Below, piece after piece: positions 34,508 through 51,320 of a stretch of DNA of 58,360 bases. The DNA comes from Comamonadaceae bacterium (lineage in GTDB: Bacteria; Pseudomonadota; Gammaproteobacteria; Burkholderiales; Burkholderiaceae_C). The translations under genes and the position numbers were made by a program. The notes beneath the pieces were generated by a model. That model did not search any database, was not told the origin of the DNA, and was given only the letters and a program-made list of their open reading frames with translations. Each line of letters starts with the position of its first letter. Within the stretch, counting starts at the first letter, position 1. The stretch covers positions 1 to 58,360 of the forward strand of contig JAIXWZ010000021.1 of the NCBI GenBank assembly GCA_027491035.1, written 5' to 3'.

Positions 34508-34515
34508 GGTGATGC

Positions 34516-35547
34516 TCAGGCTTTCCGCGAGGTTTCGACAATCTGTTCAATCGCGGAGACAAGTGCCGGGTTGATCTGGCTTTTCCATTTGTTGTAAGAG
34601 CGGCGCGTCGACTGCTGAAACGTCGACAACTCTGCGGAGCTGGGCTCGTAGACCTCCACGCCAACCTCTTTGGCTCTGCTGAGGTCCTCGGCGTAAAACT
34701 TCCTGACCTCGGCGATATTGGACTTGGCGGCATCCTGCGCTGCATCGCGAACCGCCTTCTGATCGGCAGCCGACCAGGACTCCCATGTCGAACGTGAGAC
34801 CGCGAACAGCAAAATCTCGTTCATGTAATTCCATCGTGTCACATACTTCTGCCCCAGCGTATGCATCTTGGCGGCAAAAAACAGCTCCATTGGATTTTCG
34901 CAACCATCGACTGCACCGGAGGACAAGGCTGGCTGGGTATCGGCCCAACTCATGACGGTGGGATTGGCACCCAATTCGGTGAAGACATCACTCATCATCG
35001 GCGATGGGACGATGCGCAGCTTCAATCCTCTGAGGTCAGCCACAGTTCGGATCGGCAGCTTGCTATTGCATAGTTGCCGAAAGCCTGTTTCTCCAACCGC
35101 CAGAGGTTCCGCGCCAGCTTTGCGCACTGCATCAAAGTACTGAGCCATGAAGGCCCTGTTTTGTAGCACCGCATCAAGCGCTTTGTGGTCAGGAAACAAG
35201 AAGGGCAAGGAGAAGCAGCCCAGCTCGCGGGCTGATCCGCTCCAGTTGCCAGGCGCCCCGCAAACCAGATCAATCGAACCCTGACGAATGCCGGTCAGCT
35301 CACGGGTGGCGTCACCTTGCACCAGTGAGGCGCCAGGATAAACCTTGGCATTGATGCGCCCGCCTGAGTTGTCTCTTATCAGCTTGGACCAGAGCTCTGA
35401 GGCCCGCCCCCAAGCAAAGGCTGGGGGCAGCACCGAGGACATGCGGTACTCGGCTTTCAGGTTCTGGGCAAGCGCTGCACCGGGGATGGCCGTTATCGGC
35501 ATGGCGGCTATCGCACAAGTTTGGGTCAAAAGGGTACGTCGTTTCAT
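34516..35547 (-). CDS. TRAP transporter periplasmic binding protein (DctP)
   Basis: A 343-residue DctP-family protein. An AAGGAGATGAA site precedes the ATG and a signal peptide covers MKRRTLLTQTCAIAAMPITA through ALAQ. The body has the DctP features GRINAKVYPGASLVQGD, LRGLKLRIVPSPMMSDVFTELGANPTVMSWAD (in parts), and AVDGCENPMELFFAAKMH, which carry the carboxylate-binding Arg. It delivers a carboxylate to the DctQM permease encoded just upstream. In context the ligand may be a hydantoin-like or oxoacid compound handled by HyuAB. Confidence 0.9.
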   Translation of the reverse strand: MKRRTLLTQTCAIAAMPITAIPGAALAQNLKAEYRMSSVLPPAFAWGRASELWSKLIRDNSGGRINAKVYPGASLVQGDATRELTGIRQGSIDLVCGAPGNWSGSARELGCFSLPFLFPDHKALDAVLQNRAFMAQYFDAVRKAGAEPLAVGETGFRQLCNSKLPIRTVADLRGLKLRIVPSPMMSDVFTELGANPTVMSWADTQPALSSGAVDGCENPMELFFAAKMHTLGQKYVTRWNYMNEILLFAVSRSTWESWSAADQKAVRDAAQDAAKSNIAEVRKFYAEDLSRAKEVGVEVYEPSSAELSTFQQSTRRSYNKWKSQINPALVSAIEQIVETSRKA

Positions 35548-35573
35548 TTCATCTCCTTGATAAATGGCTCACT

Positions 35574-36875
35574 TCAAAACTTCAGGCTCCGTGGCAACCA
35601 GAGCGCAAGCTCTGGAAACAACATCACCGACAAGGTCGCTACAGAGAAGGCCAGCACCAGCCAGCCGACCCAAGGAATCGTTGATTCCATGCTGATACCC
35701 GCCATCCGACAGGCCACCAGTAAATTGACGGCCATGGGCGGCGTGAAGCCGCCCATGGCAATGGCCATCGTCAGCAACACCCCGAACCAGACCGGATCCC
35801 AGCCAAAGGCCTTCATCATGGGCACCAGCAGGGGCAGAAACACCAGAAAGATCGAGACGCCGTCGAGGATCATGCCGACCAGCAACAGCAGCAGCATGAC
35901 CAGGCACAAGGTTTCGAATGAGCTCAGCCCTAGGTTCCTGATGCCCGCAATCATCGGATCGGCCAGTCCGATGGCGTTGACACTGAGCGCAAAGATGCTG
36001 GCCAGTGCCATGACGATCATGATGATGGCCGATGACAAAGCAGCATCTCGAAAAATTTCCGGCAGTTGGCGCCAGGTCATGCTCCGATGAATAAATAGAC
36101 CCACGAACAAACCGTAGAAGACAGCCACCACTGCAGCCTCGGTCGGAGTGAACCATCCTGAGCGCATACCGCCAAGGATCACGACGGGTGCCACGAGACC
36201 CCATATGGCTTCACGCAAGCTAGGCCAGAAAGGTGGTCGTGGCATGGTGCTTTCATCACGACCAAATCCCTTGATCCGGCTGATCAGTACGGCGGGGATG
36301 ATCAGAGCCAATCCTGCCAAGACACCAGGGACCATGCCGGCAGCAAACAAAGCGGGGACACTGGCGTTAGGCACACTGATGCTGTAGACGACAAAGGCGA
36401 TCGAAGGCGGGATGAGGATGTCTGTAGCGGCCGCTGCGCCAACAATGCTGGCCGAAAACGGAGCCGGGTAACCTGCACGCGACATGGCTGCGATCATGAC
36501 CCCGCCAACTGCTGCTGCATTGGCAACCGCAGATCCGCTGATTCCTCCCAGGACCATCGCCACCGTGATTGCCACCAGGGGCAGCATGCCCGGACCGCGG
36601 CCCACACAGGCGACCGCAAAGTCAACCAGGCGACGCGCAATGCCAGATCGGTCGAAGATGGTGCCGACCAATACGAACATTGGCAAAGCCATCAAGGGAT
36701 ACGATGAAATCGACGCGACTGCATTCTGAGCAGCCGGCAGCAATCCAAACCAGGGCTGGTCTCCATTGATCAAAATCAGAGTGGCCATCCCTGCCGCAGC
36801 CATCGCCACCGCAACAGGCACGCCCAGCGCTGTACCCAGGATGAACAGACCGAATAACAGCCACCCGGCCAACAT
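35574..36875 (-). CDS. TRAP transporter large permease (DctM)
   Basis: A 433-residue protein with about twelve hydrophobic helices. Motifs include ALPMFVLVGTIFDRSGIARRLVDFA, GGISGSAVANAAAVGGVMI, and the C-terminal LVGMILDGVSIFLVFLPLLVPMMKAFG. The longer open frame overlaps dctQ; the ATG at 36875 overlaps the dctQ stop as TGATG and gives the normal family start. It is the ion-coupled translocation subunit in the inner membrane. Confidence 0.92.
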   Translation of the reverse strand: MLAGWLLFGLFILGTALGVPVAVAMAAAGMATLILINGDQPWFGLLPAAQNAVASISSYPLMALPMFVLVGTIFDRSGIARRLVDFAVACVGRGPGMLPLVAITVAMVLGGISGSAVANAAAVGGVMIAAMSRAGYPAPFSASIVGAAAATDILIPPSIAFVVYSISVPNASVPALFAAGMVPGVLAGLALIIPAVLISRIKGFGRDESTMPRPPFWPSLREAIWGLVAPVVILGGMRSGWFTPTEAAVVAVFYGLFVGLFIHRSMTWRQLPEIFRDAALSSAIIMIVMALASIFALSVNAIGLADPMIAGIRNLGLSSFETLCLVMLLLLLVGMILDGVSIFLVFLPLLVPMMKAFGWDPVWFGVLLTMAIAMGGFTPPMAVNLLVACRMAGISMESTIPWVGWLVLAFSVATLSVMLFPELALWLPRSLKF

Positions 36876-37384
36876 CAATCCTGCCCTCTTCTGCGCCAGC
36901 CGCCCCAGGCCGCACGCCAGGCCCCCAATGCGCATAAAAGTGCGACCGGTAGAGTCAGCCACCAGCGGGGAATATCGAGGCTGGACACCTTTTCCTGGTA
37001 CTCATATTCGCCCAGCGCTGTCTTCATCAAAAGCAACGCCAGAGTGGTCAGCACCACGGTGGTCAGCCACACCGACAGCTGTCGCAGTCGGCGCCTCGTT
37101 GCAGCGTCCTTGCTGCCATACAAGAATTCAACCCGGATGTGCTGGTCATGGAATGCCGCCGCCGCCGCACCCGCAAAAACCATCAGCAACATCAAAAAAA
37201 CCGAAACTTCTTCAGTCCATCCAATCGACACGTCGGAAACGTAGCGCAAGACGACGTTGGCGAAAGTGATCAAGGTCATCAGCGCAATCGCTGCCGTTGC
37301 CAGCACCTCCTCCAGCCGCCATGGACGCGCTTTGACCTCTGCGTCCTCAGCGGGCGTACGCTGGGAATCGTTCGACGAAATCAT
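36875..37384 (-). CDS. TRAP transporter small permease (DctQ)
   Basis: A 169-residue protein with four hydrophobic helices and the DctQ motif FANVVLRYVSDVSIGWTEEVSVFLM followed by DQHIRVEFL. It is the first gene of the TRAP-RraA-Hyu operon. The 155-bp gap to the LysR gene upstream presumably carries the operon promoter; I see no convincing -35/-10 pair there. Confidence 0.9.
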   Translation of the reverse strand: MISSNDSQRTPAEDAEVKARPWRLEEVLATAAIALMTLITFANVVLRYVSDVSIGWTEEVSVFLMLLMVFAGAAAAAFHDQHIRVEFLYGSKDAATRRRLRQLSVWLTTVVLTTLALLLMKTALGEYEYQEKVSSLDIPRWWLTLPVALLCALGAWRAAWGGWRRRGQD

Positions 37385-37539
37385 GAATTTCCAGATGGTG
37401 TCCTTGCATAGGTGGCCGGCCGTTGCCGTCCTCGCCCAAAGGAAGAATCCGGAGTATTCGAAGCCTACAGCTCCAAGTCAAATGAGAAATATTGGCTGGT
37501 TCAGTCCATTTTTTTTTGATAAACGGTCGCATTCCCCAT

Positions 37540-38472
37540 CTAAAAGCCAGATCGATCCTGCCATACAAGTTCCGGCGATGACTCCTGACAAAACTGCGCG
37601 CCCACCTCGATCAAAAGTTCAGACAGCAGGCGTTGGAGCCGATTCTGCGGATCGGACAGATACGACACCTGCAATTCGAGTGGCGGGAAGGCTGCATCGA
37701 CAGGGACCATCCTGAGGTTGCCCGCACGCAAATCTTCTTGCACCAGCACCGCAGGAATAATGGCCACGCCCAGACCATCCTTGGCCAGCCGAATCACGGT
37801 TGACAAAGAGGTTCCACAATACATCCTCCGCGGCCCACCGTGTGGCGCGAACAATGCTTCTGTGTGCGCGTGTGGCGTGGATCCCTGACTGAAGGTGAGG
37901 ATGGGGTACTGTGCCAACCCCGCCAAAGTCATGGTCCGATGACTCGAAATCAGTTGCGGCGAAGCCACCCAATGACAAGCCATCTGAAAAAGCCGTCGAT
38001 GGACCGCACCGGGTGTTGTCTGACCGACCAACGAGACGGCAAGGTCGATACCCCCCAAGGCCAGGCGCTGCATCAGGTTATGACTGGTGTCGGCCTGTAG
38101 ATCGAGTTCAATTTTGGGGTGTCGCGCTTGAATGGTGCGAAGAAAGGCAGAGAGAACGGCATTGGCCGCCGTATCGATGATGCCCAGCCTGACCCTGCCA
38201 CTGAAGGCATCAGTTCCTCGAATGGTGGATTCGAAATCACCTTCGAGTTGGAGCAGGCGTTCAGCGATCGGCAGGGCATCACGCCCCTGCTGGGTCAGCC
38301 GAATGCTGCGACCCTGGCGCTCCAAAAGACGCACACCCAGTTCGCTTTCAAGAGCCTGCATGCGGGCCGAAACCGCCGACAGGGTTGAATTCAAGCGCTC
38401 AGCTGTCTTGCTGAAACTCCCCAAGCGTGCAATCCAGACAAAAGTCTCAAGAAATCTGAGGTTCACAGGCAT
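37540..38472 (-). CDS. LysR-family transcriptional regulator
   Basis: A 310-residue LysR protein. The N-terminal helix-turn-helix is LRFLETFVWIARLGSFSKTAERLNSTLSAVSARMQALE (in parts), followed by the linker RLLERQGRSIRLTQQGRDAL. The C-terminal effector domain carries typical LysR blocks (GRVRLGIIDTAANAVL, TFSQGSTPH). It is encoded upstream of the TRAP/hydantoinase operon on the same strand, not divergent as is usual, and probably regulates it. Confidence 0.9.
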   Translation of the reverse strand: MPVNLRFLETFVWIARLGSFSKTAERLNSTLSAVSARMQALESELGVRLLERQGRSIRLTQQGRDALPIAERLLQLEGDFESTIRGTDAFSGRVRLGIIDTAANAVLSAFLRTIQARHPKIELDLQADTSHNLMQRLALGGIDLAVSLVGQTTPGAVHRRLFQMACHWVASPQLISSHRTMTLAGLAQYPILTFSQGSTPHAHTEALFAPHGGPRRMYCGTSLSTVIRLAKDGLGVAIIPAVLVQEDLRAGNLRMVPVDAAFPPLELQVSYLSDPQNRLQRLLSELLIEVGAQFCQESSPELVWQDRSGF

Positions 38473-38674: not shown

Positions 38675-39331
38675 TCACAACCCGAGCAAAGCCAAAGCCC
38701 GCTGGTACGAACCGGCCGGTTGGGTTACGTCGAACTGCACGGTCTGCCAGCCCAGATCAATGGCCCCCAGCACATTGCGGCTCTGGTCGTCCACAAACAC
38801 GCAGTCTGCAGGCGCGACCCCCAGCGCCTCGGTACACATTTCGTAGGCCCGGCGATCGGGTTTGAGGATGCCGGTGTAGCTTGCGTCGATGATCACGTCA
38901 AAATGTTGCAGCAAAGGCAGCCGATGGCGAAAGCTGGCCCCGTAAAACAGGTCCAATTCGTTGGACAGCACAGCCAGCTTGCAACCTGCCGCCTTGGCCT
39001 GCTGCACCGCCTCAATGGCTTCAGGGCGAATGACCGCCGCGACATCCGCACCTCGAGCGCGCTGCACAAAGGTCTGCATGTCCTGCCAGTCCTCGCCCAC
39101 CAGCGCCCCCACGCTGCGTGTGCGGGCCATCCAGTACTCACGCTCGCTGATGCGGTCAGCCTGCATGTCCTGCCACAAGGCATCAGTCTCTGGCGCAAAG
39201 GGCCCGCGCCAGGTCAGTGTGCCAGGGGGCAGGCCCAGCGCAGCCTCACTCAAGTCGTGTGTTTCAAACAGGGTGCGGCTGATGACACCGCCAAAGTCGA
39301 GCACCAGCGCTTTGGAAGATGGACCGGTCAT
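38675..39331 (-). CDS. HAD-superfamily hydrolase (subfamily IA)
   Basis: A 218-residue HAD hydrolase. Motif I is VLDFGGVISRT (nucleophile Asp12, with Gly in place of the second Asp), motif II is AVLSNEL, motif III is the Lys in ILKPDRRAYE, and motif IV is VFVDDQSRN. It is probably a phosphatase or dehalogenase on a small molecule. Its ATG overlaps the Tm-1-like gene stop as ATGA, so it is the last gene of the P450 operon. The substrate is unknown. Confidence 0.87.
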   Translation of the reverse strand: MTGPSSKALVLDFGGVISRTLFETHDLSEAALGLPPGTLTWRGPFAPETDALWQDMQADRISEREYWMARTRSVGALVGEDWQDMQTFVQRARGADVAAVIRPEAIEAVQQAKAAGCKLAVLSNELDLFYGASFRHRLPLLQHFDVIIDASYTGILKPDRRAYEMCTEALGVAPADCVFVDDQSRNVLGAIDLGWQTVQFDVTQPAGSYQRALALLGL

Positions 39332-40569
39332 GGGGCCGCTTTCTTCACCCACCCCCGCGCCAACCAGTCGTCAAAGACCTCGAGCACCTGCTCCACAAAG
39401 GCCGCATCATTGATGTGGGCGTCGATGCGCGAGACCTGGGCGGCGCCCCAGTCGCACTGGGCACATTCGTCCATCAAGGCAGCCAAGCCCTCGGGGTCGT
39501 GTAGCGGCGCACCGGGCCGGTCCCATTCTTCGATACCTTGAAGCGGCAGCAGCAGGTGCACCGGGCCACGCGCCTGACGCAGGCGCTGGGCCAACTCCCG
39601 GGCGAACTCGCGCCGCATGTTCGCGTCTATGCCCACCGAGGCGATCAGGCGGTTGTGGTCGTGCGAGGGCCGACCGGCAAAGCGCTCGGGCATCTGTCCC
39701 CAGGCGGGGTAGTCCACCAAATCAGTGGCGCCGGTGGCGACGATCATCGGCACGCCCTGGCGGCCCGCGCCCATCAGGCGATCTGGCCCGGCGCTGACCA
39801 CCGAGCCGCCCATCTGGTTGACCATCTCTTGCAGGCTGAAGTCCATCACGCAGGCGAACTGGCCTTGCGCGGCCAGCGATTCAAATGCCCGGCCTCCCAT
39901 GCCCGTGGTGTGGAAGACGGCCAGGTCAAACCCGCGCTTGTCCAATTCGGGCTGCAACTGCACCATGTATTTGAGGCAACTCGAGCCCAAAGACGTCATG
40001 CCCACCACGGGCCGCTCAAAACGCGGCACGCGCGCTACGCGGCAAGCCCCCACCACCGCGCCTGCGGCTTGGGCCAGGGCCGACTGGCACAGGCTGTTGA
40101 GGCCATACAGACCCCCGGCCCAGAGCACCATCATCAGATCGGGCGGCATGCGCTCGGGGGGCAGAAGGGGCGAAAACGCGACCGTCGACAGCACCACTTT
40201 GGGCACCCCCAGCGGTAAGCTGCTGGCCACGTCCAGCGCCAGATCGGTGCCCATCGTGCCACCCAGGACCAGCAAACCGTTGATCTGGCCTTCGCGGTGC
40301 ATCTGGGCAGTCAGCGCGCTGGCGCCTTGGGCCATCAAGGCCATGGCACTGTTTTCGTCGCCGCTGTCCATGACCTGCTGCAGCGTCACACCAGCCGCCT
40401 GCGCCACATCGGTGTTGGCGATATCCGGGATCAGACGCCCTTTGGCCAGCACGCCCACGTCCATGACCAGGGCCCGACCGCCAGCGGCCTGCACCTGCTC
40501 GCGCATGAAACCGATCTCGTCGCTCTTGGTGTCGACGGTGCCAACGATCAGGATGACAGGGCTCTTCAT
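39328..40569 (-). CDS. Tm-1-like ATP-binding / UPF0261 family protein
   Basis: A 413-residue protein of the UPF0261/Tm-1-like family. The N-terminal ATP-binding domain shows ILIVGTVDTKSDEIGFMREQ (in parts), an INGLLVLGGTMGTDLAL Gly-rich loop, and the second domain has RPVVGMTSLGSSCLKYM and FHTTGMGGRAFESLA. The family is widespread in bacteria, and the tomato Tm-1 protein shares the N-terminal domain. The biochemical role of bacterial members is not established to my knowledge. It overlaps the aminotransferase upstream and the HAD gene downstream by four bases each. Confidence 0.85.
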   Translation of the reverse strand: MKSPVILIVGTVDTKSDEIGFMREQVQAAGGRALVMDVGVLAKGRLIPDIANTDVAQAAGVTLQQVMDSGDENSAMALMAQGASALTAQMHREGQINGLLVLGGTMGTDLALDVASSLPLGVPKVVLSTVAFSPLLPPERMPPDLMMVLWAGGLYGLNSLCQSALAQAAGAVVGACRVARVPRFERPVVGMTSLGSSCLKYMVQLQPELDKRGFDLAVFHTTGMGGRAFESLAAQGQFACVMDFSLQEMVNQMGGSVVSAGPDRLMGAGRQGVPMIVATGATDLVDYPAWGQMPERFAGRPSHDHNRLIASVGIDANMRREFARELAQRLRQARGPVHLLLPLQGIEEWDRPGAPLHDPEGLAALMDECAQCDWGAAQVSRIDAHINDAAFVEQVLEVFDDWLARGWVKKAAP

Positions 40570-41930
40570 GCGCGGCCCTCCTGGACGGCGGCAAAGGCGG
40601 CTTCGAGTACACCACACATAAGATCGATCTCTTCGCGGGTGATGATCAGGGGCGGCGACAAGATCAGGTTGGGGCCGGAGATGCGCACCATCAAACCCGC
40701 CTTGTAGGCAGCCTTGGCGACCCGCGCGGGCACGTCGCTGCTGCGGGTCATGGGGGTGCGCTGGGCCTTGTCGCTCACCATCTCGATGCCCAGCATCAGG
40801 CCCACGCCACGCACATCACCCACAAAGCTGCAGGTATCGGCCAGCTTGCGCAAGCGGGTCTGCAGGTGCGCGCCCACACGGGCGGCGTTGCCCGGAATGT
40901 CCAGCGCCTCGATCTGGTCGAGCGTGGCCAGCGCCGCCGCTGCTGCGACAGGGTGAGCGCTGTAGGTGTAACCGTGCGAGACCGAGGCCGTGCCGGTGGT
41001 GTCGGCATCGAACACATCGGCAATGCGGCGGTTGATGGCTGTGGCCCCCAGCGGGATGTAACCCGACGAAATGCCCTTGGCCAGGCACCACATGTCGGCA
41101 TTCACACCCCACAGGCGCGTGCCGAACAGTTCGCCGCTGCGGCCAAAGCCGGTCACCACCTCATCGGCGATCAAGAGCACACCGTACTTGTCACAAATCT
41201 GGCGCACCAGCGGCCAGTAATTGGGCGGCGGCACGATCACCCCGCCCGCGCCCTGCACGGGCTCGGCGATGAAGGCCGCCACCGTGTCCGGCCCCTGGAA
41301 CACGATTTCGCGCTCCAGCATTTCGGCGCAAATCTCGCCCAAGCGAACCGGGTCATCGGTGTAGGGGTTGTGGTACGCCCAGGGCGTGTCGATGTGAAAG
41401 CAGCCGGGCAGCAGCGGCTCGTAGGCACGGCGGAAATTGGTGTTGCCGTTGACGCTCATGCCGCCAAAGTGCACGCCGTGGTAGCCCTGGCGCAGGCTGA
41501 TGAACTTGAAGCGGTCGGCCTGGCCCTTGAGTTTCCAATACTGGCGAGCCACCTTCAACGCGCCTTCCACCGCGTCAGAGCCGCCGTTGGAAAACATCAC
41601 GGTGGCCACGTCTTCAGGCTGCATCATCTGTACCAAGCGTTTGGACAACTCGATCGCCCGCACATGGGTGGTGCCGCGAAACACGTTGTAAAACGGCAGC
41701 TCGTCCATCTGCGCCACGATGGCGTCGCGCACGGGACGGTTGCTGTGGCCCAGGTTGCAGGCCCACAACCCCCCCACGCCGTCGAGCATCTTGTGGCCGT
41801 CCACGTCCCAGATCCAGCAACCCTCGCCTTTGGCGATGATGTCGGGCGTGGATTTCTTCATCGCCCCCGGGTGGGCCATGGGGTGCCACAGGTACTGCGC
41901 GTTGTCGGCCTTGAGTTGCTCGTTGGTCAT
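40566..41930 (-). CDS. Class III (omega-amino acid) aminotransferase
   Basis: A 454-residue fold type I PLP enzyme. Visible are the FSNGGSDAVEGALKVARQYW phosphate-site region, D256-E257 in LLIADEVVTGFGRSG, and the PLP Lys285 in CLAKGISSGY. The family includes omega-amino acid:pyruvate, GABA and taurine transaminases. I chose the ATG at 41930 (MTNEQLKADN); a GTG at 41951 would overlap the ALDH stop as GTGA. It would convert an omega-amino acid, such as that released from a gamma-glutamyl conjugate, into an aldehyde or keto acid. Confidence 0.9.
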   Translation of the reverse strand: MTNEQLKADNAQYLWHPMAHPGAMKKSTPDIIAKGEGCWIWDVDGHKMLDGVGGLWACNLGHSNRPVRDAIVAQMDELPFYNVFRGTTHVRAIELSKRLVQMMQPEDVATVMFSNGGSDAVEGALKVARQYWKLKGQADRFKFISLRQGYHGVHFGGMSVNGNTNFRRAYEPLLPGCFHIDTPWAYHNPYTDDPVRLGEICAEMLEREIVFQGPDTVAAFIAEPVQGAGGVIVPPPNYWPLVRQICDKYGVLLIADEVVTGFGRSGELFGTRLWGVNADMWCLAKGISSGYIPLGATAINRRIADVFDADTTGTASVSHGYTYSAHPVAAAAALATLDQIEALDIPGNAARVGAHLQTRLRKLADTCSFVGDVRGVGLMLGIEMVSDKAQRTPMTRSSDVPARVAKAAYKAGLMVRISGPNLILSPPLIITREEIDLMCGVLEAAFAAVQEGRA

Positions 41931-41947
41931 GTCGCGTGCTTTCAAAA

Positions 41948-43432
41948 TCACAACTGAATCCAGGCCGTTTTCAGGTCCAGGTATTTATCCAGGGCGTGCA
42001 TCGACTTGTCGTGCCCGTTTCCCGACTGGCGCACCCCGCCCAATGGCACGGTGATGTCGGGCCCGCCATAGGTGTTGACGTGCACCACCCCGGCCTTGAT
42101 GGCACGTACCATGCGGTGGGCGCGCGAGAGGTTGCCCGTCCACACCGCCGACGCCAGGCCATAAGTCGAATCGTTGGCCAGACGCACCGCCTGTGCTTCA
42201 TCGTCAAAGGGCAGCACGGCCAGCACAGGACCAAAAATCTCGTCACGGGCCAGCTGCATGTCGGGCGTCACACCATCAAACAAGGCCGGCGCCATGTAGC
42301 TGCCACCCGCCACTGGCTGCAGCGCCTGGCCACCCACGCGCAAGCGGGCGCCCTGCTGCTGCGCGGCCTGAACCGCCGCCAGGTTTTTAGCCAGTTGCCT
42401 GGCGCTGCTGACCGCGCCAATTTCAGTCGTCACATCGAGCGGGTCGCCCACACGCAGCTTGGCCGCGATCTCTTGCAGGCGGTCGACAAATTCGTCATGT
42501 ACCGAGCGTTGCACCAGAAGGCGCGAGCCCGCCACGCACACCTGACCACTGTTGCGGTAAATGCCCATGGCCGAGACTTTGGCCGCCTGGGCCAGGTCGG
42601 GCGCATCGTCAAACACGATGTTGGGCGACTTGCCGCCGAGCTCGAGGTAGACCCGTTTGAGGTTGGACTCGGCCGAGGCCTTGAGCAGCAGCCGCCCCAC
42701 CGGGCCGGAGCCGGTAAAGGTCAAGATATCCACATCCATGTGCCGCGCCAACGCCTCGCCCGTGTGGGCACCGGTGCCGGTGACCACATTGAGCACCCCG
42801 GGTGGCAAGCCCGCCTCCAGGCACAGCTGGGCCAAGCGCAGCAAAGACAGCGAGGCGTCTTCGGACGGTTTGAGCACGACCGAGTTGCCCGCAGCCAAAG
42901 CAGGCGCAATCTTCCAGGCGCCGATCATCAACGGAAAGTTCCAGGGTACGATGACCGCGACCACGCCGACCGGCTCTTTGTGCACCAGGCCCAGGGTGCC
43001 CTCAGGCGTGGGGGCGATCTCGCCGTTGACCTTGTCCACGCACTCGGCGTAGTAGCGGAAAGTGCCCGCTGCGCTGCCCGGCTCGGCCTTCCAGGCCATG
43101 GCGATTTCGGTGCCGTTGTCACGCACCCCCAGCACCGCCAGCTCGGCATGGTGCGCCTCGATTCGGTCGGCAATGCGGTGCAGCACCTTCTTGCGCTCGG
43201 CCGGTGCCATGCGTGACCACACACCCTGCTCGAAACTGCGACGGGCCGCCTGCACGGCGCGCTCCACATCCACGGCGCCGGCAGAGGCCATGCTGCACAG
43301 CGTCTGGCCGTCGATGGGCGAGACCACGGGCAGCGTCTGGCCCGAGGCAGCAGCAATCCACTGTCCGCCGATCAGCAGCCCCTGGTCGGGAATGGGCAGG
43401 TGGCGCAGGGCGTCTATCTGCTCTTGTTTCAT
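41948..43432 (-). CDS. NAD(P)-dependent aldehyde dehydrogenase (PuuC-like)
   Basis: A 494-residue aldehyde dehydrogenase of normal length. It has PWNFP (Asn165), the general base Glu264 in LELGGKSP, and the nucleophile Cys299 in NSGQVCVAG. The TFTGSGPVG nucleotide loop is near residue 240. It resembles the gamma-glutamyl-gamma-aminobutyraldehyde and betaine aldehyde dehydrogenase group. It should oxidise the aldehyde formed after amine oxidation by the operon P450. It follows the ferredoxin gene by 9 bases. Confidence 0.92.
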   Translation of the reverse strand: MKQEQIDALRHLPIPDQGLLIGGQWIAAASGQTLPVVSPIDGQTLCSMASAGAVDVERAVQAARRSFEQGVWSRMAPAERKKVLHRIADRIEAHHAELAVLGVRDNGTEIAMAWKAEPGSAAGTFRYYAECVDKVNGEIAPTPEGTLGLVHKEPVGVVAVIVPWNFPLMIGAWKIAPALAAGNSVVLKPSEDASLSLLRLAQLCLEAGLPPGVLNVVTGTGAHTGEALARHMDVDILTFTGSGPVGRLLLKASAESNLKRVYLELGGKSPNIVFDDAPDLAQAAKVSAMGIYRNSGQVCVAGSRLLVQRSVHDEFVDRLQEIAAKLRVGDPLDVTTEIGAVSSARQLAKNLAAVQAAQQQGARLRVGGQALQPVAGGSYMAPALFDGVTPDMQLARDEIFGPVLAVLPFDDEAQAVRLANDSTYGLASAVWTGNLSRAHRMVRAIKAGVVHVNTYGGPDITVPLGGVRQSGNGHDKSMHALDKYLDLKTAWIQL

Positions 43433-43441
43433 GGGCCGCTT

Positions 43442-43756
43442 TCAGTTGGGCACATGCAACACGATGCCGTCCAGCGCAGCACAGGCGACCAGTTGGCAGC
43501 TCAGGCGGCTGCCACTTTTGCGAGGGGCACTGACGATGTCGAGCATGGCGTTTTCGACCTCGTCCTTCGGCGGGCAGGCGGCCAGCCAGGCTTCGTCGAC
43601 GTAAACATGACAGGTGGCACAGGACAGGCAGCCACCGCATTCGCCTGCGATGCCGGCAATGCCGTTCATCTGGGCGGCGTCCATCAGGTTGGTGCCGTCG
43701 TTCACGTCATCGCTCACGCGATCGCCGTTGCTCATGAGCCAGTGAACTCGGGGCAT
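43442..43756 (-). CDS. 2Fe-2S ferredoxin, putidaredoxin type
   Basis: A 104-residue ferredoxin with the C-x5-C-x2-C...C cluster ligands at Cys40, Cys46, Cys49 and Cys87 (one extra Cys at 43). This is the adrenodoxin/putidaredoxin class that feeds electrons to bacterial cytochromes P450. A P450 gene lies two genes upstream in the same operon, so it is the likely redox partner. No ferredoxin reductase is encoded in the window. It lies 20 bases after the glutamine-synthetase-like gene. Confidence 0.93.
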   Translation of the reverse strand: MPRVHWLMSNGDRVSDDVNDGTNLMDAAQMNGIAGIAGECGGCLSCATCHVYVDEAWLAACPPKDEVENAMLDIVSAPRKSGSRLSCQLVACAALDGIVLHVPN

Positions 43757-43776
43757 GGTTCGGTCTTTCAGGAATC

Positions 43777-45069
43777 TCAGATGAATCGGATGTAGTAATC
43801 GCGCAGCGCGTCGCCTTCCAGACCTGCGGTGCGTCCGATCTCGTGGCGCTTGATGCCCACATGGTTGGCCACCAGGCCTTCGCCCAACGCTTGCGTGAGC
43901 GCCGTATCGGCCTCGAGCGCGTCCAGCGCACCTGCCAAGGTGTCCGGCACGCTGTGGGTGGCGTCCTTGTTTTCCAGGCAGTCACCGGTCTCTGCGGGCT
44001 GCAGCGTGTACCCGTTGATCACGCCCAATCGCGCGGCCTGCAGCACGGCGGCGGTGTGGGTGTAGGGGTTAGCAGCGGCATCGCCCATGCGGTGCTCGAT
44101 GCGCGCGCCCGGGCCGCCTTCAGCCGATAGGCGCACCGTGACGCCCCGGTGGTCTACAGCCCAGTTTTGCCAAAAGCCCGAGAGGCTGGCCGGTTGCAGG
44201 CGCTGGTAGGAATTGGCGCTGGGCGCCAGCAGGCCCGCTAGCGCCCGGTGGTGCTCCATCAAGCCGGCGGTGCAGGCCAGCGTCAAAGGATTGAACTGGC
44301 TGGCGTCGTGCCCACCCGAGATCGCGTTGTGACCCTGTGCGTCGCGCAGGCTGAAGTTGATGTGCACCCCGCTGCCTCCCACCGTCAGGATGGGCTTGGG
44401 CATGAAGGTCAGCACGATGCCGTGCTGGAAAGCGACCTCACGTGCCAAGAGGCGGAATAAAAAGATGTCGTCCACGGCCTTGACGGCGCGGTCATAGGTC
44501 AATGTGAACTCGAACTGCGGCGCATCGTATTCGGTATTCATGCTGTCGATGCGAAAGCCCGCGGCCGTGGCTTTTTCCCAAAGCGCGTCGGTGAAGCCCC
44601 TCGGGTCGGAGAATGGACCGGTTGAATACACATGGGCCGCAGGCGTGTCATAGGGCTTGAGCGAGCCATCGGGCTCGATCTGGAAGGCAAAGGCTTCGAG
44701 CTCAATGCCCACCATCGGGTCGTAGCCCATGGCCTGCCAGTCGGCCACTGCGCGCTTCAAGGCGCTGCGCCCGCACATGGGCAGGGGCGTGCCATCGTTG
44801 GCCTTGAGGTCGCCAATAGCCACCTGGGTGAACGGCTGCCAGCCGGGACGGATGTCTTCGGCGGTGTAGGCCGCTTCCATGTCGGGCAGGCCTTCCATGA
44901 CCATGGCGCCAGGCACGGGGATCAGCTCTTTCTCATAGGTCACGCCAAAGGTGCCGCGGCAAAAGCGGGCACCGCCGCCTTGCCCGGGTTGGAGCGTGAC
45001 GTATTTGCCTCGCGCAATGGCCAGGTGGTCGCAAAACAGCACCCGCAGGCGTTCTTGGACATTCGACAT
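43777..45069 (-). CDS. Glutamine synthetase-like gamma-glutamyl amine ligase
   Basis: A 430-residue member of the glutamine synthetase family. The ATG at 45069 has an AAGGGA site. The catalytic barrel shows VGIELEAFAF, NTEYDAPQFEF, GSGVHINFSLRD and RIEHRMGDAAANPY, covering the metal-binding Glu and His residues. The length and the changed glutamate loop resemble PuuA-type and anilide-type ligases more than housekeeping GlnA. It would join glutamate through its gamma-carboxyl to an amine using ATP. Neighbours are a class I amidotransferase, a P450, a ferredoxin, an ALDH and an aminotransferase, as in an amine-degradation route. Confidence 0.85.
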   Translation of the reverse strand: MSNVQERLRVLFCDHLAIARGKYVTLQPGQGGGARFCRGTFGVTYEKELIPVPGAMVMEGLPDMEAAYTAEDIRPGWQPFTQVAIGDLKANDGTPLPMCGRSALKRAVADWQAMGYDPMVGIELEAFAFQIEPDGSLKPYDTPAAHVYSTGPFSDPRGFTDALWEKATAAGFRIDSMNTEYDAPQFEFTLTYDRAVKAVDDIFLFRLLAREVAFQHGIVLTFMPKPILTVGGSGVHINFSLRDAQGHNAISGGHDASQFNPLTLACTAGLMEHHRALAGLLAPSANSYQRLQPASLSGFWQNWAVDHRGVTVRLSAEGGPGARIEHRMGDAAANPYTHTAAVLQAARLGVINGYTLQPAETGDCLENKDATHSVPDTLAGALDALEADTALTQALGEGLVANHVGIKRHEIGRTAGLEGDALRDYYIRFI

Positions 45070-45080
45070 GGTGATTCCCT

Positions 45081-46346
45081 TCAGATGAGGTGCATGCGCA
45101 CTGGCAGGCGTTTGATGCCACACACAAAATTCGAGCGCAAAAAGGCATGTTCACCCGTCTGCTCGATGCGATCGACCCGCCGGATCAGCTCTTGCAGCAG
45201 GACGCGCAACTCCAGCCGCGCCAGCCACATGCCCAGGCAGGCGTGCGCGCCGCCCTGCCCAAACGACAGGTGGCGGTTCACGCCTCGGCTGAGGTTGACG
45301 ATGAAAGGCTGATCGAAGGCTCGCTCGTCACGGTTGCCCGAGATGAACCAGAGCAGCACCTTGTCGCCTGCCTTGACGTGCTTGCCGTGGTATTGAAAGT
45401 CCTCGGTGGCGGTGCGGCGAAAGTGGGTGGCGGGTGAGGCCCAGCGGATGAACTCGTCGGCCACGCCCTCCCAGGCGGCCTCACCCTGCACCGCCTTGAG
45501 TTGGGCCATCAGGCCCGGCTGATGGGCCAGCGCGTGCAAGGCTGCAGCGATCGAATACCGGGTGGTGTCGTTGCCCGCCGCCACCAGCAGGCAAAAGAAG
45601 TTGCGGAACTCGGTGTCGCTGATCACGTTGCCCTGCGCATCGGGCTGGGTGATCAGGTGCAGCACGCCGCTCGTGTCGCCAGCAAGCCGCTTGCGTTCCA
45701 TCATCTGGGCGGCGTAGTCGTACAGATCTGCCCCCGCAGGCGAGCGAAAGGGCATGAAGCGGTAGGCCTCGGTGTCCATCTTGTCGACCACATGGCTGGT
45801 GAAATCGCTGTCGGTGTTGGCCATGAGCGCGTCGCCCTTGTCCACCAGCCAGTCCAGATCCTCCTCGGGCAGGCCTGCGATGCGCCCGAGCATGCGCATG
45901 GGCAACTGGCGGGCGATCTGCTGTATGGCGTCAAACTCGCCTTGAGGTAACGCTTGGTCGAGAATGCCCACGCACAATTCCCGAATCTGGTCTTCGTACA
46001 GCGCCATCATGGGCTTGGAAAAGGCCTTGGCCACCAGCATGCGGGTGCGGGTGTGTTCGGGCGGGTCGGTCTCCTGGAAGGTGCGCCGCGCCATGTACTC
46101 CTCGTGCGTCTGGTCTTCCATGCGGATGCCCTGGGCTGAACTCAAGCGCTGGTGGTTGCGATTGAGCTCCAGGATGTCGGCGTGGCGCGTGACCGACCAA
46201 AAGCCCTTGCCCTCCGACCAGTCGCACCAGGCCATCGGGTCCTCGTCGCGCAAGCGTTTGAAGGTGTTGTGCGGCGCACCATTCACATAGCTGTCGTGAT
46301 TAGACAGGTCAGCGTGTCCATCGTCGGTGGGGATCCAGACAGTCAT
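45081..46346 (-). CDS. Cytochrome P450, class I bacterial type
   Basis: A 421-residue soluble P450. The haem-binding motif is FGQGGAHACLG with the axial Cys370, the I-helix is AAGNDTTR (Asp260-Thr261-Thr262), and the K-helix ExxR is Glu298 to Arg301. It hydroxylates a C-H bond with O2 and electrons from a ferredoxin, here probably the one at 43442. The ATG at 46346 overlaps the amidotransferase stop as ATGA. In this operon it occupies the place of the amine oxidase of the Puu pathway, so alpha-carbon hydroxylation of an amine or gamma-glutamyl amine, giving an aldehyde, is a reasonable inference. Confidence 0.93.
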   Translation of the reverse strand: MTVWIPTDDGHADLSNHDSYVNGAPHNTFKRLRDEDPMAWCDWSEGKGFWSVTRHADILELNRNHQRLSSAQGIRMEDQTHEEYMARRTFQETDPPEHTRTRMLVAKAFSKPMMALYEDQIRELCVGILDQALPQGEFDAIQQIARQLPMRMLGRIAGLPEEDLDWLVDKGDALMANTDSDFTSHVVDKMDTEAYRFMPFRSPAGADLYDYAAQMMERKRLAGDTSGVLHLITQPDAQGNVISDTEFRNFFCLLVAAGNDTTRYSIAAALHALAHQPGLMAQLKAVQGEAAWEGVADEFIRWASPATHFRRTATEDFQYHGKHVKAGDKVLLWFISGNRDERAFDQPFIVNLSRGVNRHLSFGQGGAHACLGMWLARLELRVLLQELIRRVDRIEQTGEHAFLRSNFVCGIKRLPVRMHLI

Positions 46347-47071
46347 GGGCGGGTATTTCTCGCGTGTTCTATAAACTGCACCATCCACCGGCCAAACAGC
46401 GGCACGTCGGCGGCCTGGGCCAGACTGGCATGAGCGCGCTCGAGCGTGGCAGCATCGAGCTTGTCGGCCAGGTAGCCCAGCAGGGCCTGCATGAACACCA
46501 GGGGCATTTCAGGGTGGTACTGCGTGGTCCAGATGTGCTGGCCGATCTGCATCGAGCCGATGGGGCAAAAATCGCTGCCGCCCAGGCATTCGGCGCCCTC
46601 GGGCATGCGGGAGACCTGTTCGTTGTGGGCAGCCATCAAGGTAGTCAGGGACCGGACCGGTTCCATCCATGGGCGATCGCCCTGCCAGTGCGTGGCCGCG
46701 GTACCCAAGCCCCAACCTGCCGCGTTGCGCACCACCTGCCCGCCCAGCGCCCGGGCCACGGCCTGATGGCCAAAACACAGACCAATCAGCGGTTGGCGGG
46801 CCGCATCAACGGCGCGGATGAAGTCCATGAGCGGGCCCACCCAGGGCAGCCGATCGTCGTTGACCGAGGCCGGGCTGCCGGTGATGACATAGCCGTCGAA
46901 CGCCTTCGCGCTGCTGGGCAACACGCCATCCTTGACTGGCACGACCTCAAAATGCCAAGCCGGGCGCAGGGGCCGCAGCAACTGGACCACCTTTTGCCCA
47001 TCGTTCGGGAACTGCGCGGCAAACGCCGAGGTGTCGTCGTTGGTCAGCAAAACGGCCAGGCGCAAGGTCAT
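46343..47071 (-). CDS. Class I glutamine amidotransferase-like hydrolase
   Basis: A 242-residue class I glutaminase domain with the triad Cys99 (GLCFGHQ), His186 and Glu188 (YHPE). It has no synthetase domain, so it is a free-standing amidase, as are PuuD and the gamma-glutamylanilide hydrolase of aniline degraders. Its likely role is to split a gamma-glutamyl conjugate at the end of the route. It is the first gene of the eight-gene operon, divergent from the AraC regulator across a 150-bp gap. The ATG at 47071 is preceded by a GGAAACC site. Confidence 0.88.
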   Translation of the reverse strand: MTLRLAVLLTNDDTSAFAAQFPNDGQKVVQLLRPLRPAWHFEVVPVKDGVLPSSAKAFDGYVITGSPASVNDDRLPWVGPLMDFIRAVDAARQPLIGLCFGHQAVARALGGQVVRNAAGWGLGTAATHWQGDRPWMEPVRSLTTLMAAHNEQVSRMPEGAECLGGSDFCPIGSMQIGQHIWTTQYHPEMPLVFMQALLGYLADKLDAATLERAHASLAQAADVPLFGRWMVQFIEHARNTRP

Positions 47072-47149: not shown

Positions 47150-47221
47150 GTTTTCACGAAAAGAGGGTGGTTGCGGCGCAGGCACACTTGGGCTCATGAT
47201 CCGGCCTTATCGTTTTCCGTC

Positions 47222-48181
47222 ATGAAGTCCTCCGACGCCCAAGCCAGCTGGGTTCAGGTGCTCGACACCTCGGACATGGATCAACACGCCCAGGCCCAAC
47301 AGAGCTGGGCGCTCCAATACGAGCAGCTCTCGCCCGGCCAGTTCAGTGGGCGCCTCCATCAGGTGCAGTTGCCCGAGGTCACACTGCTGCGCGAGGATAC
47401 GAGCATCGCGCTGCGTCAGAAAGGAAAACTCGATGACAGCGTGTACGGCTTTGCCATGGCACTGCAGGACTCGCCCAACCTGTTTTTCAACGGCCAGCGG
47501 GTACCTGCGCACGCCATCATGTGCGGCAAAGGCGACGAGGTGGACCTGACCACGCCACCCCACTTCACCTTGATCGCGGTGGTGGCACGGCGCAGCCTGC
47601 TTAACCCGCTTTGGGAGCGCATGTACCAAAAGCCCCTGGCGCATTGGCTTGAAAAACAACTGGTTCTTCAGACCACCGACATCAAGGCGCAGAACCTGCG
47701 TGACCTGCAACTCACCGTGCTGGACCAGGCCAGCGCCATGGCCTACCGCCAGCACGATCCGCAGGCCTTGCGCCAGTTGCGCGACGAGATCTTGATGGAA
47801 TGGCTAGAAGCCCTGCCCGCGCAGGTCGATACCTCTGAACTGCCCAATCTGGAGCGGCGCAAAAAGCTGGTCGACCGGGCCTGCGAGCTGATGATGGGCC
47901 ATGCCGACGAGCCCCTATCCATCCTGGAGGTGTGCAGCCGCGTGGGCACAAGCCGGCGCAAGCTCAACTACTGTTTCCAAGACGTGCTGGGCACCACGCC
48001 CATCAAGTACTTGCGCTCGCTTCGGCTCAACGGTGTGCGCCGCGCCCTGCGCCAGGCGCCGCCCGGCGTCACCATCCAGGACATCGCCTCACACTGGGGC
48101 TTTTGGCACCTGAGCCAGTTCGCACAGGACTACAAGCACCTGTTTGGCGAACTGCCCTCGGACACTTTGCGACAGCGATGA
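47222..48181 (+). CDS. AraC-family transcriptional regulator
   Basis: A 319-residue regulator. The C-terminal AraC domain has both helix-turn-helix units: ILEVCSRVGTSRRKLNYCFQDVLGTTPIKYLRSLRLN (in parts) and ITIQDIASHWGFWHLSQFAQDYKHLFGELPSDTLR (in parts). The N-terminal sensing domain is of the type seen in EutR-like proteins. The ATG at 47222 was chosen; the upstream frame lies in the intergenic gap. It is divergent from the P450 operon and leads a plus-strand run, with its stop overlapping the next start as ATGA, so it probably controls both. Confidence 0.9.
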   Translation: MKSSDAQASWVQVLDTSDMDQHAQAQQSWALQYEQLSPGQFSGRLHQVQLPEVTLLREDTSIALRQKGKLDDSVYGFAMALQDSPNLFFNGQRVPAHAIMCGKGDEVDLTTPPHFTLIAVVARRSLLNPLWERMYQKPLAHWLEKQLVLQTTDIKAQNLRDLQLTVLDQASAMAYRQHDPQALRQLRDEILMEWLEALPAQVDTSELPNLERRKKLVDRACELMMGHADEPLSILEVCSRVGTSRRKLNYCFQDVLGTTPIKYLRSLRLNGVRRALRQAPPGVTIQDIASHWGFWHLSQFAQDYKHLFGELPSDTLRQR

Positions 48182-49053
48182 GCAGCCTCCAGGCCACGCG
48201 CCTGTCCGCCATATTGACCATGGTGGCGGCCATGGCCTGCCTGTCCACGCAAGATACGCTGAGCAAAAAGCTGATGCTCAGCCTGGCTCCGGTCATGATC
48301 ATCTGGACTCGCTATGGCTTGCAAACTGCACTGGTGAGTGTCAGCCTGTGGCGCAGACGCTCACCTGAGTTGTGGCGCTCCCGGCAGTGGCGACTGCAGC
48401 TGTTGCGTGGCGTGCTGGTGGTGGGCGGCAGTGTCTGCGGCTACGGGGCCTTGCAGCGCATGCCCGTGGCCGAATTCACCGCTGTTTATTGCTTGGTGCC
48501 CTTGGCCGTGACCCTGGCGGCCCGTTTCGTGATGAAGGAACAGGTGTCCTGGTCGGGCTGGCTTTGCGTGGCCGGCGGTCTCATGGGCGCACTGCTGGTG
48601 GTCCGCCCGGGAGGCGATGTCGATCCGGTCGGGGCACTGCTGGCCTTGGCTGGGGTGGCCTGCCACACGGCTTTCCAGATCCTGACCAGCTACCTGGCCC
48701 GGCAGGACTCGCCCCTGACCATCCAATTGTTCACCAGCGTATTCGGTTTTGCGAGCCTGTCGCTGGCAGTTCCTTTCTTCTGGCCTGCGGCTTTGCCCTG
48801 GCCAGACCTGGCGATGCTGTTCCTGGTGGCACTGGCTGGCGCCTACGGGCAGTACTTCATGGTGCTGGCTTTCGCCAAAGCCCCGGCCTCGGTGCTGTCT
48901 CCGTACCTTTATTCGGCCATCGGTTTTTCAGCATTGGGCGGCTGGTGGATGTTTGGCCACCTGCCCGACGCCACGGCCATCTGCGGCATGCTGATGATCG
49001 GGGGCTTTGGCGTGGCCGCAGGCTGGTTCAGCCAACGCAAGGCCCCTGCATGA
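48178..49053 (+). CDS. DMT-superfamily (EamA) transporter
   Basis: A 291-residue protein with about ten membrane helices in two EamA repeats (first at 15-130, second at 150-285). It includes the RYGLQTALV stretch and the PVAEFTAVYCLVPL repeat end. EamA proteins export or import small metabolites such as amino acids and amines. Its ATG overlaps the araC stop and its stop overlaps the DUF2817 start, both as ATGA, so the three are co-translated. Export of a toxic amine or uptake of a substrate is possible. Confidence 0.88.
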   Translation: MSSLQATRLSAILTMVAAMACLSTQDTLSKKLMLSLAPVMIIWTRYGLQTALVSVSLWRRRSPELWRSRQWRLQLLRGVLVVGGSVCGYGALQRMPVAEFTAVYCLVPLAVTLAARFVMKEQVSWSGWLCVAGGLMGALLVVRPGGDVDPVGALLALAGVACHTAFQILTSYLARQDSPLTIQLFTSVFGFASLSLAVPFFWPAALPWPDLAMLFLVALAGAYGQYFMVLAFAKAPASVLSPYLYSAIGFSALGGWWMFGHLPDATAICGMLMIGGFGVAAGWFSQRKAPA

Positions 49054-50120
49054 ACACACCACTTTTCAGCCCCAGCTACCGAAACGCTCGGGCCCATTTT
49101 CTAGCGGCGGCCAGCGCCTGTGGCGCCCGTGTGTACACCCAGGCCTTGCACTTGTTCGGTGCACAGGGCGAACTGCTGGCCATGGATGTGGCGGTGCAGG
49201 GTCCACCCGATGCGTCCAAAGTGCTGATGACCACCAGTGCCGTGCATGGCATCGAGGGGTTTTGCGGTTCGGCCATCCAGACCGGCCTGATGCAACACCT
49301 GGCTTTGCCTGCGGATGTGGCGGTGGTGCATGTCCACGCGGTCAATCCGCACGGCTTTTCGCATAGGCGTCGCGTCAACGAAGACAACATCGACCTCAAC
49401 CGCAATTTCATTGATTTCAACCGGCCATTGCCGGTCAACGCCGACTACGCCGAAGTCCATCGCCTGCTGCTGCCTGCGCAATGGCCACCGAGCACAGCAG
49501 ACCAGGCCGAGCTGGAGGCGCTGGCCCAAGTCTGGGGCGAGCGGCGCTTGCAAATAGCCATCACCAGCGGGCAATACCAATTTCCCGAGGGGGTCTGGTT
49601 CGGGGGGCTGACCCCGACTTGGAGTCACCTGACCTTCCGCAAGGTGCTGCAGGCACATCTGGGACAGGCGCGGCATATCGCGTGGATCGACCTGCACACG
49701 GGCCTGGGACCATACGGCCACGGAGAGCGGATTTTTGCCTGCACCGACACCGGCACCGCTTTGCAGCGAGCCCGCCAGTGGTGGGGGCCTGAGATCACCT
49801 CGGTGCAGACGGGCACTTCAAAAAGCGTGCCGCTTTCCGGACCGATCCAGATGGCGATTGACCAAGAGTGTCCCGCTGCACAGTACACCGGCATATGCCT
49901 GGAATTCGGTACCGTGCCGCTTGCGCAGATGATTCTGGCCATGCGGGCGGAGCATTGGCTGGCTTTGCACCCAGAGGCACCACCCGAACTGTGCACCAGC
50001 ATCCGAGAGGGCATGCAGCAGGCCTTTAATCCCCCCTCAGCCGACTGGCAGGCGCAGGTCTGGGCGCAGGGGCTGGAGGCCGCCCGGCAGGCGGTACAAG
50101 GTCTTTGCGCCCCAGCCTGA
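49050..50120 (+). CDS. DUF2817 (M14-like zinc carboxypeptidase fold) protein
   Basis: A 356-residue DUF2817 protein. It has the M14-like zinc motif HGIEGFCGS (His and Glu), then NPHGFSHRRRVNEDNIDLNRNF with the conserved Asn-Arg, a third ligand His in WIDLHTGLGPYG, and a late Glu in CLEFGTVP. These are the metal-binding and catalytic positions of the succinylglutamate desuccinylase/carboxypeptidase fold. It may hydrolyse an N-acyl or gamma-glutamyl amide. It is coupled to the transporter before it. Confidence 0.85.
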   Translation: MNTPLFSPSYRNARAHFLAAASACGARVYTQALHLFGAQGELLAMDVAVQGPPDASKVLMTTSAVHGIEGFCGSAIQTGLMQHLALPADVAVVHVHAVNPHGFSHRRRVNEDNIDLNRNFIDFNRPLPVNADYAEVHRLLLPAQWPPSTADQAELEALAQVWGERRLQIAITSGQYQFPEGVWFGGLTPTWSHLTFRKVLQAHLGQARHIAWIDLHTGLGPYGHGERIFACTDTGTALQRARQWWGPEITSVQTGTSKSVPLSGPIQMAIDQECPAAQYTGICLEFGTVPLAQMILAMRAEHWLALHPEAPPELCTSIREGMQQAFNPPSADWQAQVWAQGLEAARQAVQGLCAPA

Positions 50121-50269
50121 AACCGATCGAGCGAAGTCTTTCCGGGAAAACCCCGCCCGGCATTTGCAGTTTTTCGATACCTACCCGGTGCTGCCTTGTC
50201 CAGACTGTGGCCCTGCGACGTGGCGATGACCGCCAGCGACCATCACAACCCTCTTCAAGGACGACAACC

Positions 50270-51247: not shown

Positions 51248-51283
51248 ACCATCATGCGCAGCGCCCTTGCGCTGCGCCAGGCG

Positions 51284-51320
51284 CCCGGGACAGGCACCTC
51301 GCTTGCATCCCGGGTTTTTT
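51284..51320 (+). terminator. Probable rho-independent terminator after the Bug gene
   Basis: The arms CCCGGGA and TCCCGGG around a 17-base loop are followed by TTTTTT. It lies between the Bug stop (51247) and the amidase start (51332), so it may limit readthrough from the Bug gene into the amidases. Confidence 0.55.

Follow-up and report, generated by a model that had tools for sequence, protein, structure and literature searches.

What pathway is served by an operon that sets a glutamine-synthetase-like ligase beside a cytochrome P450? The question is raised by a stretch of 58,360 nucleotides (contig JAIXWZ010000021.1 of assembly GCA_027491035.1, from a freshwater Comamonadaceae bacterium), analyzed here as a whole and called the window. 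Eight genes on its minus strand, opening with an ATG at 47071 and closing with a stop at 38675, are free of internal stops and spaced, in transcription order, by -4, 11, 20, 9, 17, -4 and -4 bases, the last value being that between the Tm-1-like and HAD genes. Their best Pfam matches above cut-off are, in order, GATase, p450, Gln-synt_C, Fer2, Aldedh, Aminotran_3, UPF0261 (N and C) and HAD hydrolase. An earlier note on this DNA had described eight co-directional genes with 4-base overlaps or gaps of at most 20 bases, a description borne out by the coordinates, the Pfam matches and the recurrence of the set in 42 Burkholderiales-type loci. The operon is real and conserved and looks amine-catabolic. 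Our leading, if tentative, reading is that it may encode the upper steps in the catabolism of an arylethylamine, with tyramine or a close relative the most likely substrate and a logic of the type known from the isopropylamine (Ipu) pathway.

Under this scheme, the ligase (430 amino acids (aa), 43777..45069, minus strand like all eight genes; PF00120, 239.5 bits), a proposed gamma-glutamyl arylalkylamine synthetase, would use ATP to join the amine to the gamma-carboxyl of glutamate. The P450 (421 aa, 45081..46346; PF00067) would then hydroxylate the gamma-glutamyl amide, the likeliest site being the ring position beside the phenol hydroxyl, with electrons passed by the putidaredoxin-type 2Fe-2S ferredoxin (104 aa, 43442..43756; PF00111; nearest PDB chain putidaredoxin) and by a reductase from elsewhere; no ferredoxin reductase gene is among the eight. 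The class I glutamine-amidotransferase-like protein (242 aa, 46343..47071; PF00117, 54.1 bits), a proposed gamma-glutamyl amide hydrolase, would free glutamate and a hydroxylated amine of the dopamine type. That amine would be converted to an arylacetaldehyde by the class III aminotransferase of the PRK07481 subfamily (454 aa, 40566..41930; NF005683, 712.4 bits, cut-off 575; nearest PDB chain the omega-transaminase 5lh9). The KauB/PuuC-like aldehyde dehydrogenase (ALDH; 494 aa, 41948..43432; PF00171; nearest PDB chain KauB) would oxidize the aldehyde to the arylacetate, homoprotocatechuate (HPC), to be cleaved by the products of hpa genes located elsewhere in the genome. The Tm-1-like UPF0261 protein (413 aa, 39328..40569; NF002676, 583.4 bits, cut-off 556; PF06792 and PF23189) and the HAD hydrolase (218 aa, 38675..39331, with its ATG at 39331; PF00702; weak PDB matches to YihX and an epoxide-hydrolase N-domain) would be accessory. 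We infer each substrate and each reaction in this scheme from a set of observations: the gene content, a separate ligase clade, linkage and co-occurrence with hpa-type genes among relatives, and, for most genomes searched, no clear HpaB.

The amidotransferase-like protein, for which PF00117 is the sole Pfam match, has a Cys motif (LCFGHQ) and an HPE motif by eye, and its top PDB match is gamma-glutamyl peptidase 1 (55.5 bits). The P450 shows by eye the heme motif FGQGGAHACLG, AGNDTT and ExxR; its top PDB chains are CYP125MRCA, CYP268A2, CYP126 and CYP124A1. For the ALDH the best NCBIfam model is PuuC, at 561.6 bits below the cut-off of 850, placing the protein outside that equivalog.

Model scores and an alignment rule out a plain glutamine synthetase as the identity of the ligase. 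Among the models matched, it falls below all NCBIfam cut-offs for glutamine synthetase (182 bits against 469.6 and 156 against 429) and for PuuA (180.6 against 650 for the equivalog NF045547). When aligned with two IpuC, PuuA, DcaQ and the three other glutamine-synthetase-family proteins encoded in the same genome, it was found to lack the DGSS segment of GlnA, which we take to be part of the ammonia site; one of those three proteins has the segment. A glutamine synthetase fold that lacks it is in keeping with the broad kind of glutamyl organic amide synthetases (GoaS). The earlier note had made its reading depend on the ligase being something other than a plain glutamine synthetase, and on that point it was right. 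In a tree of 35 sequences the ligase and its relatives form one clade (support 100/100, branch 3.25), separate from IpuC, PuuA, DcaQ and GlnA. IpuC and PuuA stand on the sister side (97/80) and DcaQ groups with GlnA; the branches outside the clade are long, so the nearest outside neighbor is unsure. The family would be a new ligase clade, putatively one of amine-glutamate ligases.

The ligase rarely travels alone. A scan at one genome per species gave 429 relatives, the best 80 of which, with three plasmid records, make up 83 loci. L011 and L012 were removed before counting as they come from the same genomes as L013 and L048, and L083 and L084, two records with identical contig name and length, were each counted. 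Gene presence was called by identity limits, and some loci end at contig edges. The P450 lies immediately upstream of the ligase at the standard spacing in 77 of the 83 loci; in the other six it is cut by the contig start (four), a stump (L053) or absent (L081). The ferredoxin is present in 68 loci and the class I amidotransferase in 66. Record titles and likeness assigned 42 loci to a Burkholderiales type, leaving 41 others. The P450 is found in all 42, the amidotransferase and the aminotransferase in 38 each, Tm-1 in 37, the HAD gene in 36, the ferredoxin in 33 and the ALDH in 32, a recurrence that makes the grouping more than chance. Some of these loci also carry a ferredoxin reductase and an amino acid permease. 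The reductase sits between ligase and ferredoxin in four of the 42, and the order in L030 is amidotransferase, P450, ligase, reductase, ferredoxin, permease, ALDH, aminotransferase, Tm-1, HAD. Pairwise distances of P450 and ligase correlate across 27 chosen loci (r 0.88), a value that shared ancestry alone could yield. With the ligase far from glutamine synthetase, the P450 adjacent and the amidotransferase so frequent, the proposal in the earlier note that glutamylation and a P450 act together on an amine probably holds.

Which amine this might be is suggested by the neighborhoods of the relatives. At least one hpa-type gene lies in the flank of 22 of the 41 non-Burkholderiales loci (22 of the 34 with at least 9 kb upstream): a HpaD-type dioxygenase in 13, only HpaI and a decarboxylase in eight, and only a HpaG-type gene in one. 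In one of the eight (L071), HpaE, D, G and H are on a different contig. HpaD is of two kinds, a VOC type above its cut-off (409.8 bits against 321.4 in Shimia thalassica, L069) and a LigB type below (144 against 316, in the Dongia-type loci). The Shimia thalassica locus, where HpaH is likewise above cut-off (380.4 bits against 351.5), holds in one 21-kb stretch HpaD, HpaG-like, HpaH, HpaI-like, GntR, amidotransferase, P450, ligase, ferredoxin, aminotransferase, IclR, TctA, ALDH and Tm-1 genes. In L055 and L063, HpaE-, HpaD-, HpaG- and ADC-like genes, a decarboxylase, the P450, the ligase, the ferredoxin and a reductase run in one direction, and the order in L059 is identical. A DOPA/tyrosine-decarboxylase-like gene is present in 11 of the 83 loci, in company with hpa-type genes. 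Two of its products were compared with known enzymes, and both came out closest to DOPA, tyrosine and aromatic-amino-acid decarboxylases, with DOPA decarboxylase the top PDB match of each (390 and 662 bits). The P450s that adjoin HPC-type genes and decarboxylases are 59-70% identical to that of the window. A fumarylacetoacetase gene adjoins the core in six of the 83 loci and a MhpA-like hydroxylase gene in eight. Homogentisate was rejected as the end point for the window operon, HgmA being absent from the 11 genomes searched, all of them Burkholderiales, with the roseobacters outside that search.

The second half of the operon, the aminotransferase-ALDH-Tm-1-HAD module, is found in similar company. 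Rhizobium acidisoli (L139) has it between hpaB and, about 6 kb on, hpaF and hpaE, with the core absent from the 25 kb read; identities to the window are 70% for the ALDH, 61% for HAD, 56% for Tm-1 and 51% for the aminotransferase. In Gellertiella (L148) it follows HpaI, H, G, D, E, a weak HpaF and HpaB on a contig other than that of the core, and in Shinella (L141) it lies beside a decarboxylase 69% identical to a roseobacter decarboxylase. Such sets also occur with no obvious aromatic genes, in Ruegeria pomeroyi, where HAD is lacking, and in Variovorax, whose ALDH is only 34% identical. Taken together, these placements suggest the order decarboxylase, amine, core, aminotransferase, ALDH, hpa. 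Two more genes, one for a second class III aminotransferase-like enzyme and one kinase-like, accompany the module in L139 (15256-17552), L141 (13265-15542), L140 (9765-12004) and L069 (about 18.6-20.8 kb, with the kinase of APH type); they may be a kinase/phospho-lyase pair for a hydroxylated amine. Separately, Sagittula stellata (L142) has a related class III aminotransferase (55%) in the company of maleylacetate reductase, intradiol dioxygenase, TctCBA and paa genes, which may belong to a further route for an aromatic amine.

Co-occurrence at the level of genomes was assessed in two groups, with the ligase present in 34 of 90 genomes of the Limnohabitans genus and 58 of 295 of the Shimia family. 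Among the latter (HpaH at E <=1e-90; ligase at E <=1e-100, with L069 as the query), HpaH is found in 54 of the 58 genomes with the ligase versus 57 of the 237 without (Fisher p 4.8e-23, odds ratio 43), a test that takes no account of shared ancestry. The two genes are at most 20 kb apart in 11 of these genomes. HpaH is also above cut-off in nine of 11 Burkholderiales genomes with the operon (eight Limnohabitans and one Hydrogenophaga metagenome-assembled genome, MAG). The cluster in L122 is a complete hpa set, with HpaR, HpaE, HpaD, HpaH and HpaG-C above cut-off, HpaG-N and HpaI below and HpaF by eye; by BLAST the same set is present in L123, L124 and L126.

None of the nine operon genomes with HpaH has a HpaB above cut-off. 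More broadly, PF11794 gave ten matches above cut-off over 34 genomes and 2 plasmid records, and nine of them were inspected in stretches of 17-18 kb (G586 was left out). One, in Gellertiella, is a true HpaB (91% to that of Rhizobium, inside the hpa cluster); one, in Lentibacter, is perhaps a HpaB (49%, with 37% HpaH-like and 31% HpaI-like neighbors); the other seven are 22-31% identical to HpaB with no clear hpa genes near. With one true and one possible HpaB among the nine, HpaB was rejected as the ring hydroxylase for most carriers searched. These carriers thus lack the usual catechol-forming enzyme, and the P450, with the glutamylated amine as its substrate, would stand in for it. With somewhat less confidence than for the arylethylamine reading, this may be an undescribed tyramine-type route, in which gamma-glutamyl masking lets a soluble P450 form the catechol and so replaces HpaBC as the entry to HPC. 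We found no account of P450-based gamma-glutamyl tyramine or dopamine catabolism in a literature search that had most subscription journals outside its reach.

Several results weigh against an arylethylamine as the predicted substrate. An hpa-type gene or decarboxylase is in the flank of none of the 42 Burkholderiales-type loci, 12 of the 34 full non-Burkholderiales loci lack an hpa-type gene nearby, and no PF00282 gene was found in nine Comamonadaceae genomes or in the MAG of the window itself (G000). That MAG, like the Burkholderiales MAG of L048, has no HpaH above cut-off, and its PF11794 protein is not close to HpaB. Within the Limnohabitans genus, HpaH is above cut-off in 31 of 34 genomes with the ligase versus 49 of 56 without (counted by eye). 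Co-occurrence specific to the ligase was accordingly rejected there, where hpa is background, and since Limnohabitans genomes without the ligase also have hpa, another source of HPC must exist in them. Gellertiella carries the core as well as its true HpaB. The Dongia-type decarboxylase is closest to DOPA decarboxylase, so the amine in these bacteria may already be a catechol. Finally, the ALDH of the window is nearest to KauB and PuuC, enzymes for aliphatic aldehydes.

The provenance of the window also bears on this. G000, where the window is contig C227, is the only one of 87 genomes in its genus to carry the ligase. As the window is also collinear with the Limnohabitans locus L013 at 78-96% protein identity, the contig may be misbinned or transferred. 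Its G+C (62.8%, other pieces of G000 63.3-66.5%) is uninformative on this point. Two public MAG labels are also at odds with their contents: a contig labeled 'Akkermansia muciniphila' (L026) bears a Limnohabitans-type operon, and a contig in a 'Flavobacteriia' MAG (L083) shares its name and length with a contig of a Roseobacter MAG.

A different chemistry on the same substrate class is rather unlikely, and it is the alternative that survives best. The P450 could hydroxylate the carbon beside the amide nitrogen, so that the amide splits into the arylacetaldehyde and glutamine, and ligase and P450 would together be a deaminase, which corresponds to the earlier note's idea of a P450 in place of the amine oxidase. 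In Dongia-type loci and Novosphingobium L009, the P450, ligase, ferredoxin and HPC-type genes have neither an amidotransferase nor a close aminotransferase in their flank (the aminotransferase in L063 is 30% identical), which favors such a C-N-cleaving P450 and counts against the hydrolytic route preferred here. The CYP125-, CYP268-, CYP126- and CYP124-type relatives of the P450 are sp3-carbon hydroxylases, as this chemistry would ask. However, it needs neither the hydrolase nor the aminotransferase, the very genes found in 38 each of the 42 Burkholderiales-type loci, and it leaves no enzyme for ring hydroxylation where HpaB is missing.

The earlier note had instead proposed a cyclic or alkyl amine that is glutamylated and oxidized by the P450, with the PuuC-like ALDH and hydrolysis then yielding an omega-amino acid for the aminotransferase. 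This substrate is not favored and we consider it unlikely, even though the closest described logic is that for isopropylamine, the ALDH is nearest KauB/PuuC and the flanks of the Burkholderiales-type loci are free of hpa-type genes. A malonyl-CoA decarboxylase gene, which would fit a beta-alanine-like product, follows the HAD gene in 13 of those 42 loci (at 15.7-21 kb in L013 and similarly elsewhere); it is not directly downstream of the window operon. Some loci with this gene also have a GntR-like gene, TctC and an AMP-forming ligase. The P450 is just 27% identical to the Ipu P450 of pTC1, however, and many relatives, with P450s much closer to the window's, adjoin HPC-type genes and aromatic-amino-acid decarboxylases. 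The aminotransferase-ALDH module, moreover, keeps company with hpa genes where the core is absent (Rhizobium) or on another contig (Gellertiella).

Quite unlikely, too, is another arylalkylamine or a methoxylated or N-methylated amine, such as octopamine, synephrine, 3-methoxytyramine or a plant or algal amine, for which the P450 would be a demethylase or benzylic hydroxylase. The second class III enzyme and APH-type kinase of roseobacters and rhizobia would suit a beta-hydroxy amine, but these genes are absent from the window operon and there is no sign of a methyl group. A plain glutamine synthetase next to a P450 with a terpene or lipid substrate of no relevance to the other genes is highly implausible: the Pfam family of the ligase and the CYP125/268/126/124 chains nearest the P450 would allow it, but the glutamine synthetase models are missed by a wide margin, the DGSS segment is absent, the genome has three other genes of the family, and P450 and ligase travel together across loci.

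Around the operon, a divergent AraC-family gene (47171..48181, plus strand; EutR model 162.1 bits, cut-off 319; AndR 94.6, cut-off 350) with homologues in 26 of the 33 loci L013-L045 is possibly the local regulator. Upstream of the operon (48172-52792, plus strand) are genes for an EamA-like transporter, a DUF2817-like peptidase and a TctC receptor, named by eye, and an amidase (PRK06170 above cut-off), a set that recurs in some of the Limnohabitans loci. On its 3' side, on the same strand (31767-38472), lie hydantoinase-A-like and RraA-like genes, a TRAP-type transporter set and a LysR regulator, also named by eye.

If the arylethylamine reading is correct, widespread genes labeled merely 'glutamine synthetase family' and 'cytochrome P450' would gain a function. 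The ligases would also make up a new family that joins amines to glutamate, and the P450 may take a glutamyl conjugate as its substrate. Freshwater and marine bacteria without HpaB would have a way to reach HPC, by a tyramine-type route common in the Limnohabitans genus and the Shimia family, and glutamyl masking with a P450 would extend from alkylamines to biogenic aromatic amines.

Among known systems, several share parts of the operon. The Puu pathway of Escherichia coli has a ligase, a PuuC-like ALDH, a class III aminotransferase and a hydrolase in common with it; unlike Puu, the eight genes include no PuuB-type flavin oxidase, and the ligases are 29% identical over 333 aa. The Pfam family of PuuD is not that of the window hydrolase. 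The aniline/dichloroaniline dioxygenase clusters (pDCA-1) share a glutamine-synthetase-like ligase, an amidotransferase and an oxygenase, but theirs is a Rieske dioxygenase, of which there is no gene among the eight, and their ligase, 26% identical, has a different place in the tree. The hpa meta-cleavage pathway, the proposed lower pathway, lies outside the window operon, is present in the Limnohabitans relatives and linked in part of the others, and would be entered without HpaBC. A report on Gulosibacter describes a P450, ferredoxin and reductase near a glutamine synthetase gene for piperidine and morpholine (PMC9477822); the likeness of this PipA system to the window is by description only, and its substrate class differs from an arylethylamine.

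The closest logic is that of Ipu. The earlier note knew of no described operon with this set of genes, a statement that goes too far: according to PMC6776027, in Paenarthrobacter aurescens TC1 IpuC glutamylates isopropylamine, a P450 system carries out the hydroxylation and an amidotransferase the release, so the core logic, with ligase, P450, ferredoxin and amidotransferase, is already known. Papers citing the work on Pseudomonas sp. KIE171 give it the same pathway. By annotation, the TC1 plasmids pTC1 and pTC2 each hold a glutamine-synthetase-like ligase, a P450, a ferredoxin and amidotransferases in one cluster, with ALDH genes and an amino acid permease nearby. The window operon shares the sequence glutamylate, hydroxylate, hydrolyze and a PF00117 amidotransferase in the cluster. 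It differs in lacking an alcohol dehydrogenase or SDR gene, in adding the class III aminotransferase, Tm-1 and HAD genes, and in the HPC-type neighbors of its relatives. Its ligase is 30% (pTC1) and 27% (pTC2) identical to IpuC and belongs to a different clade; its amidotransferase is 27% identical to AAur_pTC10062 and has no match at E 1e-3 to AAur_pTC10065, which lies beside the Ipu P450. Orthology with pTC1 was rejected for the P450 (27% over 368 aa) and for the putidaredoxin-like ferredoxin (no BLAST match at E 1e-3 to the 68-aa pTC1 protein). The window operon would work like Ipu and, judged by the descent of its P450 and ferredoxin, is not the Ipu cluster; it joins a known logic to a new ligase clade and, likely, a new substrate class.

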